Shown here: positions 8,567-44,875 of the stretch, piece after piece
How the letters are laid out: each line of letters starts with the position of its first letter
Position numbering within the stretch: the first letter of the stretch is position 1
Source of the DNA: Magnetococcales bacterium
Lineage (GTDB): Bacteria > Pseudomonadota > Magnetococcia > Magnetococcales > JADGAQ01
DNA length: 55,018 bases
Assembly: GCA_015231925.1 (NCBI GenBank)
Contig: JADGAQ010000007.1
Location: 1 to 55,018 of the forward strand
Direction of reading: 5' to 3'
Translations under genes and position numbers: made by a program
The notes under the pieces: model-generated
Told to the model about the DNA's origin: nothing
Databases searched by the model: none
Seen by the model: the letters and a program-made list of their open reading frames with translations, nothing else

Positions 8567-11500
8567 TCGCCGCGCTCCTCGGTCTCTTTCTGCTGCCGGC
8601 GGCTGCCACGGCGCAGGAAGGCGCGGGGCAGATCCCGCGTCCGATACCGCTGGCGGGACATTCCGCGCTGGATTTCGCTCCCTCGCTGTCGGCCAACGGA
8701 CGGCTGGTGGCCTTCTGTTCGGAGCGGTCCGGCAACCGGGATATCTGGCTTCTGGAACGGGGCGAGGCGGCCCGTCCCATTCCCCGGCAGGTTACGGACC
8801 ATCCGGGGGAGGACCACTCTCCCGCCCTGAGTTCCAAGGGGGATCGGCTGCTCTTCGTCTCCCACCGCACCGATACCCGTGGGGATATTTACCTGCAGGA
8901 TCTGCTGACCGGCAAGGTGGAGCGGTTGAGCGACGGGGCCAGCGCCGACAGTCGTCCCTTCTGGGATGGGGAGGGGCGTTTCGCCTACTACCTGAAACGC
9001 CTGCCCGGCGAGAGTACGGGTCGGTTGATGAAACGCCTGCCGGGCGAAAACCGGGAGGAGGAGGTTCTGGCCGGCCTTTCGGATTACGCCCCGGGGCCTG
9101 GGGGGCAGGTGGTGCGGCCGGGCAGACGGGGCCTGGAGGTTGTCTCTCCCGCCGACGGCGTGGTGCGGGAAGTGACCGACGGGGGATTTCTGGAGACCAA
9201 CCCGGTCGTCGACGAGGCGGGTCGGATCGTTTTCGCCCGATACAGCGAAGACTCCAACCAGGACGGGGTGGTGAATTCGGCGGATCATTCCGCCATCTGG
9301 ATGGCCCTCTTCGACTGGTCGGCGGGCCGGACCACCGGGCTCTATCAGATTACCCCGGAAGGGGGGTTTCACCTGCAGCCCACGGCGGCGCAGGGGGTTG
9401 TGGTCTATGCCGATCTGGGGGCGGGGGATGTCAAGGAGCTGTCGATTGCCGGATTGCCCGCCTTTTACGCTCGGGAGCAGGAGGCGCGGGAGCTGGCGGA
9501 GAATCTCTTCGACGAAGGGCGTTCCGACGAGGGGTTGATGGTGCTGGGCAACCGGGTGCGTCAGATTTCGCAGCAGGCGGCGAGCGGTCTGACCTTCGAT
9601 CTGGCCTGGCGGCTTCGGGAGGCGGGACGTTTCCATCAGGCGGAAAATGTGTTGCGTTCGTTGCAGGGGTTTTCCCCCCGGGATGCGGCTTTGGGGGAGA
9701 TGGGAAGGCTGGTTCTGCCTCTCTACCGCCAGGCCGGTACCCTTGATTCCCGCACGCTGCGCCAGCGCGTGGAGGAGACATCCCGCAAGGTACTGGAGCG
9801 GGCGGGTCGGGAGAAGGGGGATGCCGTGGTGGCAGGCACCGCCTGGATCGAAAGCGGGCACCTTTTCCTGCTGGCGGGGGATACCCTGCGGGCTCTGGAA
9901 CACCTCTCACGGGCCACGGCCTCGGCGGACGCGGAGGTTCGGGGCCGGGCACTGTTCAGCAAGGCCAAGGTTTTTCGCACCCTGAACAACGACGGGGAGC
10001 TGCGCAAGCTCTTTCTGGAGGTGATCGCCACCTTCGGGGAGGAGAGCCGCATGGGGCGGCGGGCCATTGCCCAGGCGCTGGAAGTTGCAGCGGTGGGGGC
10101 GTCGGTTATGGATCAGACGGCGGCGTTGCGGGCCTTTGCCGACACCCGTCCCGATTTGCCGCAACTGGGCAGCGAGGCGCAGTTCCGGGTGGCGGAGTTG
10201 TACCATGCGGCGGGTGACGGTCCCAAGGCCGTGGAGGCTTTGGACGATCTCCTGCAACGCTTCGCGGAACGCAAGCCGGCGATTCGGGAACGGGCCTGGC
10301 GGCTCAAAGCCGACTGGCTGACGGAACTGGAACGTTACGAAGAGGCTGCGGCGGCCTACACCCGACTGATGGAGGTGGGGGCCAATCCGCGGGAGGCGCG
10401 GGAACTGTTGCACCGTCTGGTGGTGCAACAGGTGCGGGCCGCCCTGCAGATACGGGATCTGGGGGATGGACAGGTGGCCTTGCGACGCTTGCGCCAGATT
10501 CTGGATCGCCATCCGGAGATGGTGGAGGTGCATCGCGGCTATATCGAAACCCGGGCCATGTTGGGGGAGATGACGGGGATACGGGATCTTTACCGCACCC
10601 GGATGGGAGAAAATCCGGGGAATCCCCTCTACCAGTACGGTTACGCCCTGGCCCTCTCCTACGAGGCCAATCCCGACTTTTCCCGGTTGATCCAACTGCT
10701 GGAGGAGGTGGTGGCCCGTGATGGCGGGGTGGCCTCCTATTTCCAGACCCTGGGCTGGGCTTACGAGCAGGCGGAGCAGGTGGGCAAGGCGGGGCAGGGG
10801 CTGTTGGAAAAGGCGGCTTCGAGTTATGGCAATGCGCTGCAGTTGACCGATACCGCCCTCTTTCCGGAGAGTGAGGCGGCGCTGTTGCTCAATCTCGGCA
10901 ACGTCATGCACGCCCTGGACAACCACGGCGAAGCCTTTCGCCATTACGCCCGGCGCGAAGCCCTGGGGCGCTTTACCCGCAACGTCACCACCGAATTGAT
11001 CTTTCACAAGCGCTTCGGCCAGAGCGCCTTCCGCATCGGTCAGATGGAGGAGGCCGTGCGACAGTTCGACAAGGCGCTCTCCATGGTTCCCGAAAAGGAG
11101 GAGCCTCTGCGCACGGAGATCATCGAACGCCTGGCGCTGGTCTACCAGGAGATGGGACGCCACACCGAGGCGGTGGCCCGTTTTTCGGAAGCGTTGGAGG
11201 CCAATGTCAAGGCGGGGCGCACGCGCAATCTGGCCATGCTGCGGCGCAACATCGGGGTCAACCTCTATCGATTGGCCCAGTCCGGCAAGGGGGGCGACCG
11301 CAAAGCGCTGGAGTCGGCCCTGGAGAGCTATTTCCTGGGGCTGGACGCCTTGCGGCAGTTCGGCGTCAAGGAGCAAAAAGCCGGGGATAGCCTGATCCAG
11401 ATGGATCTGGCTCTTTCGGGCGGCGGAGGTGGTGCGGCCAGGGGCTTCGATCAAAACGGGGAGGAGAAGCTGCTCTTCGGTTATCTGGCCGACAGCTTCG

Positions 11501-42699: not shown

Positions 42700-43449
42700 A
42701 TGAGGCTTTCAAAGCGGTCTAAAATGTCATTGGTGCAGTTTTTTTTGAGATTTAATCGTCACGAGCAACAAATACTGTTTGAAAAACACGATATCCATGA
42801 TGTATGGTATAGTTTTGATGTCATTCGCGAGTCTCTGGAGTCGGCATCGGAAGAGAGTATAACAAGTTTGCTTGATGAAATGTGCCGGACTCCGGTTTCC
42901 ATGCGAAGATGCATGGACGATGATATATATTTTGAAAGATGGGGCGATCTGTGTCGCAATCTTGAGTTGGATGGTTATATTCGTCGAATAGATGAATGGG
43001 GTCATCCATCCGGCCCGTTTATTGCTAATGATCCTGCCCCGGCGGGGCAGGAGCCGTTGGAGGATCTCCTCACGGTCGAGTTCGACGAGTCTCATCTGAA
43101 TGGAGCGGAGGATATCCTCGGGTTGTTGAGTAAGTCGGCGAAAGCTTACGTTCGAGGGGACCATAACGCCGCGCTCGTCAACGCACGGATTGCCTTGGAA
43201 TCTACTGCCAGAGCATTGGCCGACTCTCCAACATCTCCCGATTCGATCAAATGGGGATCTATCTTATGCGATCTTAAGAGGAGGGATATGATCACGGATG
43301 AGCACGAAAAAGCCTTGGCGGGTGTTTATGGCATATTATCCAAAGCAGCCCATCATCATATGACGGAACAGGAATATGCCCGTTTTGGTCGCAGTCTCGC
43401 ATGCTCTATGATATTCTTCCTGCTTAGAGTCAAGCTAAAGAGTAATTAA
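42700..43449 (+). CDS. Uncharacterised protein with HEPN/Abi_C-like C-terminus
   Basis: A 249-residue protein that I do not recognise as a whole. Residues about 135-245 are helical with the layout of HEPN or Abi C-terminal domains (AKAYVRGDHNAALVNARIAL, an Ala-Leu-Glu helix, then KAAHHHMTEQEYARFG with His218-220). Such domains are often RNases or their partners in abortive infection. The N-terminal 130 residues are charged and unassigned. ATG 42700 has GGAGG eight bases upstream; earlier in-frame starts run antisense through gmhB. Base composition is AT-rich relative to gmhB and kdsB, suggesting acquisition. The next gene starts immediately after its stop. Confidence 0.65.
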   Translation: MRLSKRSKMSLVQFFLRFNRHEQQILFEKHDIHDVWYSFDVIRESLESASEESITSLLDEMCRTPVSMRRCMDDDIYFERWGDLCRNLELDGYIRRIDEWGHPSGPFIANDPAPAGQEPLEDLLTVEFDESHLNGAEDILGLLSKSAKAYVRGDHNAALVNARIALESTARALADSPTSPDSIKWGSILCDLKRRDMITDEHEKALAGVYGILSKAAHHHMTEQEYARFGRSLACSMIFFLLRVKLKSN

Positions 43450-44148
43450 ATGGATTTCGATGTCTATTGCGATGAAAGTCGCCCGGACCTGCTGACCTCC
43501 AGAAATTCCACGGGCCGATTCATGGTCATCGGTAGCCTGTGGCTGGAATCGTTCCGCCGAAAGGGTGCCAAGAGTGACATTCATGCTCTGCGAGACCTTC
43601 ATCGGATTGGAGGAGAGTTCAAGTGGCAGAAGGTTTCCCCATCAAAAATCCAATTTTATCTTTCTCTGCTTGACTGGTTTTTCGCACAAGCGGAAAGTGC
43701 GAAGTTTAAATGTATATTGGTGTCGCATGATCCGAACGATTTGGAATTTCACGAGGGAGATGGCGAGCTTGGATTTTATAAATATTATTTTGAAATGCTT
43801 CATCCGGGAATCGTGGATCCAAATCGTTATTCAATATTTTGCGACTACAAAAGCAATCGCCTGATGACTCGATTGCAGACTTTGAGAGGCTGTCTTTCTG
43901 CCGGGTACTCCACCTCGCCAGTCGTGCAGGTGCAAGCCGTCCGCTCCGAGGAGTCGGTTCTCATTCAATTGACCGATCTTTTAACAGGTGCGGTTAGCGC
44001 CAGGTTGAATGATTCATTGGTGCAGGGCAGCGCCAAAACGGTTTTGGTTAGCCATCTGGAATCCCGACTGGGACGCCCTCTGCTGCCCGAAAATCGGGGA
44101 GGGTCAAAATTTGATATCCTAGAATTTCGTCGGGCCGGGGGAAGTTGA
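43450..44148 (+). CDS. DUF3800 family protein (RNase H-like fold)
   Basis: A 232-residue protein. The N-terminus VYCDES (Asp8, Glu9) is the DUF3800 first strand, FKWQKVS (with Glu56 just before it) the second block, FCDYKSN (Asp132) the third, and LIQLTDLLTGAVSARL (Asp176) the last; together these acidic residues fit a metal-dependent RNase H-like active site. DUF3800 proteins are found in prophages, mobile elements and defence loci, but their reaction is unknown. The ATG directly follows the previous stop and the next gene starts one base after its stop, so the three are co-expressed. Confidence 0.75.
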   Translation: MDFDVYCDESRPDLLTSRNSTGRFMVIGSLWLESFRRKGAKSDIHALRDLHRIGGEFKWQKVSPSKIQFYLSLLDWFFAQAESAKFKCILVSHDPNDLEFHEGDGELGFYKYYFEMLHPGIVDPNRYSIFCDYKSNRLMTRLQTLRGCLSAGYSTSPVVQVQAVRSEESVLIQLTDLLTGAVSARLNDSLVQGSAKTVLVSHLESRLGRPLLPENRGGSKFDILEFRRAGGS

Positions 44149-44149
44149 G

Positions 44150-44590
44150 TTGGGCTATCCTCCGCTGCTCGGATTGCTGAATGTCGAGGCCTTTCGAAAG
44201 CATTTCGAGTCTTTGTATTGCCAGCAACCGATTGTCACCTTCGACGGGATTTCCGTTCGATTCCGGAAAGAGGATTTTGATCATTGTTGTTTCGAATCCA
44301 GTCAACGCAATGGCATAAAGGATTGTTTTTCGCTGCCGAGAGCGGAGAGACTGGGGTGGATCCGGGAAGCGCTTCAGGATCCACGAAGCGACCGTTATAT
44401 CGGATGGGATAGTAGCAAAAAGCGTTACGACCCGCACCGCCGCGTGACCGTGGTGATGGGAGACTATGTTGTCGTGATCGCGATAACGGGGTATGAATCG
44501 GCTCGGTTTGTAACGGCTTTTGTGGCGGATAGTCCCGAAACCATCACAAAAATCAAAACCGCTCCTCGATGGGCCATAAAAAACCGCTGA
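44150..44590 (+). CDS. Putative BECR-fold (barnase/RelE-like) nuclease
   Basis: A 146-residue protein. The segment RAERLGWIREALQDP (64-78) followed by a basic strand, VTVVMGDYVVVIAITG and FVTAFVADS resembles the barnase-EndoU-ColicinE5/RelE-like nucleases of phages and toxin systems, where a helix with conserved Arg precedes a sheet ending in a Thr-Ala strand. The match is by eye and weak. The TTG start at 44150 has GGGGGAAG a few bases upstream and lies two bases after the DUF3800 stop. As the third gene it could be the toxic effector of the cassette. Confidence 0.5.
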   Translation: MGYPPLLGLLNVEAFRKHFESLYCQQPIVTFDGISVRFRKEDFDHCCFESSQRNGIKDCFSLPRAERLGWIREALQDPRSDRYIGWDSSKKRYDPHRRVTVVMGDYVVVIAITGYESARFVTAFVADSPETITKIKTAPRWAIKNR

Positions 44591-44875
44591 TTCGCCAGGC
44601 TGGCTCAGCGGGGGCCTTTGCAGGTTCTGCTGCCACTGGCAGAGAACACCCTCATAGTGGTTTAACGGGAAGGGTAAGTCAATCGAATTCGGTTGCTTGC
44701 AGTCTTCTGGCCATTTCCGCTGAAGACCGATCCTGATCGAGGGGCTTTTGCGGAACTGGCACCGGTGAGGGCCATGTGCCATCATGGTCTGTGCGTTGGT
44801 GAGAAAATCGTTCCTACCACGCCTGAACCCTTGGGGGGCGGACGGGCAGGATTGGCCGCAGAAAGGACTCGACTT
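44591..44875. other. Intergenic region between the DUF3800 cassette and the kdsB operon
   Basis: About 285 bases. At 44625-44648 GTTCT-TGCC / GGCA-AGAAC can form an imperfect hairpin (loop ACT), but no T-run follows, so it is not a clear terminator. An ATG-led extension of the DUF3108 frame begins at 44693 but has no family features and lies ahead of the signal peptide. I did not find a convincing promoter for the downstream operon, which must start here or be read through. Confidence 0.4.

Follow-up and report, generated by a model that had tools for sequence, protein, structure and literature searches.

In ToxIN, the ToxI repeat array sits upstream of its toxin gene. Phage PhiTE evades ToxIN through a ToxI-like RNA (PMC10853763), and a proven parallel to the locus described here is AbiF, a HEPN toxin with the sRNA antitoxin RCd22 (PMC12373285). 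DUF3800 proteins have an RNase H fold (PMC10910872). In Anantharaman et al. 2013 (PMC3710099), the RlfA/NamA domain is treated as an RNase H nuclease and a HEPN gene is placed beside a nuclease gene of this type. The rlfA and rlfB genes of phage P1 are nonessential for P1 growth, and their annotation gives a possible association with lytic replication (PMC10695390); this dispensability fits a moron or a defence role without proving either. PDC-M04 of PADLOC-DB is neither named nor tested in the literature searched and, as far as that literature shows, is a catalogued defence candidate as yet unexamined at the bench. The present analysis identified a previously undescribed, predicted sRNA gene, without an Rfam match, at the end of a PDC-M04 gene pair, and suggests that the sRNA restrains the two predicted nucleases and that phage-borne copies of it serve to disarm a defence.

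The window analysed is a stretch of 55,018 nucleotides from a Magnetococcales bacterium (contig JADGAQ010000007.1, positions 1 to 55,018), to which all unprefixed coordinates refer. Three plus-strand open reading frames, separated by gaps of 0 and 1 base, lie between gmhB and DUF3108-kdsB: gene 1 (ATG at 42700, stop at 43449, 249 aa), gene 2 (ATG at 43450, stop at 44148, 232 aa) and gene 3 (TTG at 44150, stop at 44590, 146 aa). The GC content is 0.46-0.52 across 42.5-44.7 kb, compared to 0.57-0.70 in the flanks on either side. In six relatives (L178, L179, L180, L183, L184 and L186), gmhB and the DUF3108 gene located 5' of kdsB are only ~170-350 bp apart; since these neighbours are split here by the cassette, the cassette is a true insertion. 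An earlier note on this DNA had described a compact, AT-rich group of three plus-strand genes between gmhB and the kdsB operon, and the ORF coordinates, the base composition and the comparison with kin genomes bear out that description.

Gene 2 was identified as a DUF3800 protein by Pfam (PF12686; 5e-14, 53.7 bits against a gathering score of 21) and as PDC-M04A by PADLOC model PDLC04353 (8.5e-59). Conserved acidic residues are present at D8, E9, D104, D132 and D176, and in an alignment of 45 relatives D8, E9, D132 and D176 are invariant. The protein is a predicted RNase-H-fold nuclease and a relative of RlfA, and its assignment to DUF3800 in the earlier note was correct. Gene 3, a relative of RlfB, was matched by the PDC-M04B model PDLC04359 (5.5e-56), and the adjacent genes 2 and 3 satisfy the PDC-M04 definition, with both models matched in the right order and spacing. 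The earlier statement that no named system has this composition was thus mistaken, both for this pair and for the combination of a HEPN gene with a NamA/RlfA-type nuclease gene described in 2013 (PMC3710099). Gene 3 is probably a PBECR-like nuclease, and the resemblance to barnase/RelE-like toxins noted earlier is probably right. The Pfam family PBECR2 was matched by 7 of 43 gene 3 relatives (best 5e-4), the window protein itself giving no match, and the AlphaFold model (pLDDT 90, pTM 0.85) shows helices followed by a four-stranded sheet. Foldseek comparison with BFVD returned matches at 1e-6 to 1e-3, including nucleases of phage polyvalent proteins; against the PDB, YafQ, HigB, BrnT and RelE-type toxins ranked high at non-significant E values of 0.25-1. 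For genes 1 and 3 alike, what AlphaFold and Foldseek show lends support and falls short of proof. Neighbours of the pair include type I restriction-modification (RM), Shedu and Abi_C genes, so that the defence setting proposed for the cassette is supported for genes 2 and 3.

Gene 1 consists of an N-terminal region and a C-terminal half that is probably HEPN-like by fold comparison. The Abi_C/HEPN-like C-terminus claimed earlier is probably right in its HEPN part: in Foldseek, the top matches were HEPN proteins (probability 0.97, E 0.2-0.7, TMq 0.3) using a model of pLDDT 74 built from two sequences. HEPN domains are four-helix folds with an R-x4-6-H motif; in gene 1, H218 is conserved, and no Pfam or PADLOC family was matched by the protein. 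Of the linked loci examined, just two have this gene type directly before the gene 2 and 3 pair: those of the window and of Magnetococcales genome G007, both with tight spacing. The pair is kept in six Magnetococcales relatives at 58-68% identity, and the preceding gene matches the type of gene 1 in one of the six and belongs to other types in the remaining five. Among 39 linked loci, the gene directly 5' of DUF3800 was HsdS in 13, Shedu SduA in 3 and Abi_C in 1; several linked loci have no close same-strand gene upstream. Homologs of gene 1 were found without the pair on plasmids, in Magnetococcales genome G008 and as cargo of a P2-like phage. In that phage (L167:3177-4792), the cargo comprises two genes between tail genes, one judged by eye to be nucleoside-deoxyribosyltransferase-like and the other the gene 1 homolog.

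The sRNA gene, about 70 nt long and absent from the earlier note, is structured and lies on the strand opposite to genes 1-3 at about 44683-44578 (sRNA at 44578..44648, minus strand, ends approximate). It comprises a 5' hairpin (44647-44624), a linker with a conserved AGGC, a terminator hairpin (44611-44584) and a U run (44583-44578), and at its 3' end it shares about a dozen bases with the final codons of gene 3. A sigma70-like promoter precedes it on the minus strand (44654..44682), with the -35 element TTGACT at 44682-44677 and the -10 element CACTAT at 44659-44654 separated by 17 bp. Using an E. coli-like matrix, the mean promoter score was 9.1, compared to 5.5 (sd 2.3) for shuffled sequences and 4.8 for the other strand, and in 42 of 67 relatives the -10 element ended at a distance of either 9 or 14 nt from the hairpin. 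Most of 46 non-alpha relatives have the hairpin and U run on the minus strand, and an alpha-proteobacterial subtype has no clear U run. The ~70-bp stretch showed 83-98% DNA identity where the proteins were 47-68% identical, and the loop and linker sequences are conserved across phyla. Covariation analysis showed that 12 of 22 base pairs were changed on both sides and that 96% of the cells were paired; none of 500 shuffles reached the real value, and slid versions gave 24-50%. The covarying pairs fall outside the search pattern, whose own fixed pairs do not count as evidence.

No Rfam family matched the window sRNA, no DUF3800 covariance model did so even at a permissive threshold, and abiF RNA (RF03085) and Abi_2 had no match in the window cassette. 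A search with RF02969 was uninformative, as it found no match in the targets or in the controls. The sRNA had been modelled on the plus strand at first; this orientation was dropped because the promoter, the terminator and the strand of phage genes favour the minus strand. Counts of G.U versus A.C wobbles were mixed, do not settle the strand alone and were not used. A pseudoknot of the loop AGGC with GCCT is not claimed, one of its four pairs varying without compensation, and an integron attC site or transposon end was rejected on the basis of single copy number and the lack of a left end.

A DNA pattern derived from the sRNA, which finds exact matches only, was scanned without protein information and matched 38 viral and 89 genome contigs from many phyla. 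Among 76 non-redundant bacterial loci, both genes stand directly before the sRNA in 47, one gene in 9 and remains of gene 3 in 6, so that the pair or its remains accompany the sRNA in 62; one locus meets a contig end, and the 13 loci without the genes include two or three weak matches. Within the order, a covariance model detected the sRNA in 8 of 48 genomes, including all 7 with a close DUF3800 gene, an overlap expected by chance with a probability of 8/73.6 million (about 1e-7). The sRNA is mostly single copy per genome. Genes 2 and 3 and the convergent sRNA travel together between bacteria, and the linkage and co-inheritance of the RNA gene with the protein genes agree with what is generally required of an RNA antitoxin.

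Several bacterial copies were observed outside an intact module. In genome G043, which has an intact module, a second sRNA copy (L152 and L120, contig 133) follows remains of gene 3 (RWA-stop) and is a decayed module of which the RNA survives. A solitary sRNA at L107:3058-3137, with no DUF3800 gene, lies directly behind a DarG-like macro-domain gene preceded by a DarT-like gene, as read from sequence. By the same kind of reading, solitary sRNAs that retain the promoter are located behind an AbiEii-like nucleotidyltransferase gene (L113), an AAA ATPase/TOPRIM-like pair (L103) and type I RM genes (L115). Doubtful members are the multi-copy elements of Erythrobacter genomes, which gave several near-identical weak matches of 47-52 bits, some on contigs classed as viral (L024, L039, L068, L069, L073, L078, L097, L118 and L126), and L062, L112 and L137 (26-33 bits).

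In viruses, the sRNA was found without the genes in 26 of 31 non-redundant loci containing the pattern. These solitary copies represent ~20 distinct lineages, the others being close relatives; they match the covariance model at 47-77 bits and keep the covariation of the second hairpin. The 26 virus records searched, many of them fragments, contain no DUF3800 gene at any position. The sRNA is on the strand of the local phage genes in 17 of 20 cases (p=0.003), and terminases and tail fibres are among the flanking genes. The host-type promoter is mostly absent from viral copies, as expected if phage transcription supplies the sRNA. Same-strand tRNAs occur beside or near the sRNA in L052 (14 nt from tRNA-Met), L051 (within a tRNA cluster) and L026. 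A BLAST search of phages with the window sRNA gave no match because the sequence is too diverged; the copy in the cultured Sphingobium phage Lacusarx (L166) was found with an alpha-type query. An alpha-type tmRNA is located about 800 nt from the Lacusarx sRNA, on the strand of the sRNA (L166:1318-1711).

The same two proteins are encoded by phage P1, in which RlfA matches PDC-M04A at 1e-95 and RlfB matches PDC-M04B at 1e-51. Behind rlfB, on the opposite strand, are a TTGAAA-N17-TAGATT promoter (score 11.3, compared to 7.6 with sd 1.5 for shuffled sequences; E. coli-like matrix), a hairpin and a strong terminator. This element is unannotated (L187:1895-2035, corresponding to P1 52894-53034) and is also present in P7 and JL22. 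The P1 layout recurs in two further distant PDC-M04 loci, which share with P1 the motif CTCATC..CCA.G..GAARGAG. The P1 RNA matched no Rfam DUF3800 RNA even at a permissive threshold.

A pattern based on the P1 motif matched over 120 viral stretches, 87 of them non-redundant and a few of these probably chance matches. A DUF3800 gene ends at the opposite-strand P1-type RNA in 9 of the 87 loci, with the second gene of the pair also present in 8, and 78 have no DUF3800 gene within the 6 kb examined. DUF3800-VIII RNA (RF03075) lies on the same strand about 100-230 nt from the P1-type RNA in six loci (L211, L215, L243, L256, L262 and L270), and tRNAs were identified in four (L201, L203, L224 and L240). 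In L217, abiF RNA (RF03085, antitoxin-type) and the P1-type RNA were found about 140 nt apart on the plus strand (10230-10266 and 10404-10427) of a contig that also carries tRNAs. On viral contig L027 (2786-2909), a window-type and a P1-type RNA are 20 nt apart on the same strand. Tandem arrays of a single RNA subtype were considered and were seen in only 1 of the 87 loci.

The model that fits best is an antitoxin-type RNA leash on two nucleases, with phage copies acting as RNA mimics that disarm them, because it accounts for two predicted nucleases, an sRNA with its own promoter, protein-less phage copies and defence neighbours. The functional unit would be the DUF3800 protein, the PBECR-like nuclease and the convergent sRNA. 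Both nucleases, with RNA as their putative target, would be expressed from an operon that often lies 3' of a defence gene (HsdS, Shedu or a HEPN gene), while the sRNA, made constitutively from its own promoter, would bind them and keep them inactive in the manner of RNA antitoxins. Once an infecting phage shuts off transcription in the host or takes away a partner, the short-lived sRNA would drop and the freed nucleases would cause abortive infection; phages with the sRNA in late or tRNA-rich operons would sustain its level and escape. This leash is believed about as strongly as it is doubted. It draws on the linkage across the bacterial loci, on an RNA that covaries, is more conserved than the proteins and has its own opposite-strand promoter, on stand-alone phage copies of two subtypes, on the same layout after P1 rlfB, and on the AbiF/RCd22 and PhiTE precedents (PMC12373285, PMC10853763). 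Against it stand the single convergent sRNA, unlike the upstream repeats of type III toxin-antitoxin (TA) systems, the missing clear U run of the alpha-proteobacterial subtype and the 13 bacterial loci with sRNA and no genes; the sRNA could equally be a cofactor needed by the nucleases. An active guide or scaffold RNA, with which the DUF3800 and PBECR-like proteins would form a ribonucleoprotein nuclease jammed by phage copies in the way of phage-borne CRISPR-repeat mimics, would explain linkage and conservation equally well, and DUF3800 proteins occur as accessory proteins with Cas12a2 and with type VI-F CRISPR loci and are associated with ncRNAs (PMC10910872, PMC12669027). This alternative is rather unlikely: the ~70-nt sRNA shows no variable guide segment, and a constitutive promoter of its own together with copies in phages is what an RNA antitoxin typically has.

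The convergent overlap suggests that the sRNA, without binding the proteins, might regulate the operon in cis or through base pairing, as an antisense RNA or by interfering with transcription where gene 3 ends; this is improbable, given that the overlap is so short, that loop and linker are conserved across phyla and that stand-alone phage copies keep the structure. A mere opposite-strand terminator, used as such by phages, would account for the hairpin and U run of most non-alpha relatives and for phage genes running mostly on the sRNA strand, but would leave unexplained why loops and linker are conserved, why the second hairpin covaries, why the promoter keeps a fixed spacing and why the element is tied to DUF3800 genes; it is very improbable. 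Still less credible is the single dedicated defence or toxin system of HEPN protein, DUF3800 and BECR nuclease proposed in the earlier note. Tight spacing in two genomes and HEPN genes beside NamA/RlfA-type nucleases (PMC3710099) speak for it, but the co-occurrence check showed genes 2 and 3 widely together without gene 1, which is replaced by HsdS, Shedu or other genes, or by none, and occurs alone elsewhere; as an obligate unit, the three-gene system is largely refuted and gene 1 is best described as an exchangeable upstream gene. The end of a mobile element, with DUF3800 and gene 3 as recombinase, is the least probable reading: the pair is found behind many unrelated genes and solitary elements exist, but the element is mostly single copy, no conserved left end is present upstream of DUF3800, promoter and terminator features are present and gene 3 is nuclease-toxin-like.

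With the RNA leash, the PDC-M04 candidate would gain its missing RNA component and a mechanism testable in E. coli with rlfAB, a pair of orphan genes from the classic phage P1. A wider proposal, doubted slightly more than it is believed, is that the DUF3800/PBECR-like family including P1 RlfAB may be a widespread RNA-leashed antiviral module, and that many phage lineages may carry arrays of short RNAs (the two sRNA subtypes, DUF3800-VIII and abiF RNAs, among tRNAs) that simultaneously disarm several RNA-controlled defences, as the RNA equivalent of clustered anti-CRISPR genes. Decoy action of the phage copies, if real, would assign a function to a large class of small phage RNAs that lack annotation, and noncoding RNA near phage tRNAs would be a place to seek anti-defence.

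Compared to described systems, the module has the same two proteins, order and spacing as PDC-M04, for which the PADLOC protein models scanned describe no RNA. P1/P7 rlfAB (rapAB) has the same convergent promoter-hairpin-terminator arrangement after rlfB, with an RNA of a different sequence subtype. The Rfam DUF3800 RNAs, such as RF03075, are likewise structured and tied to DUF3800 genes, and none of them matches the window sRNA. The NamA/RlfA and HEPN operons of 2013 have the same gene pairing, and the available part of that paper names another HEPN family and gives neither an RNA nor a PBECR partner. AbiF/RCd22 (RF03085) likewise combines a predicted RNase with a short structured sRNA having its own promoter and terminator; there the toxin is a HEPN protein and the RNA is upstream and codirectional, whereas here a DUF3800 and a PBECR-like protein precede a downstream, convergent RNA. 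ToxIN has a repeat array and one toxin, in contrast to the single RNA and two proteins found here; because the repeat array is absent, the sRNA being single-copy, downstream and convergent, the module is left outside the type III TA class. By analogy, the best model is that it works like an RNA-antitoxin system, sharing with ToxIN and the PhiTE ToxI mimic the proposed logic of an RNA leash, release on infection and evasion by a phage copy of the RNA.
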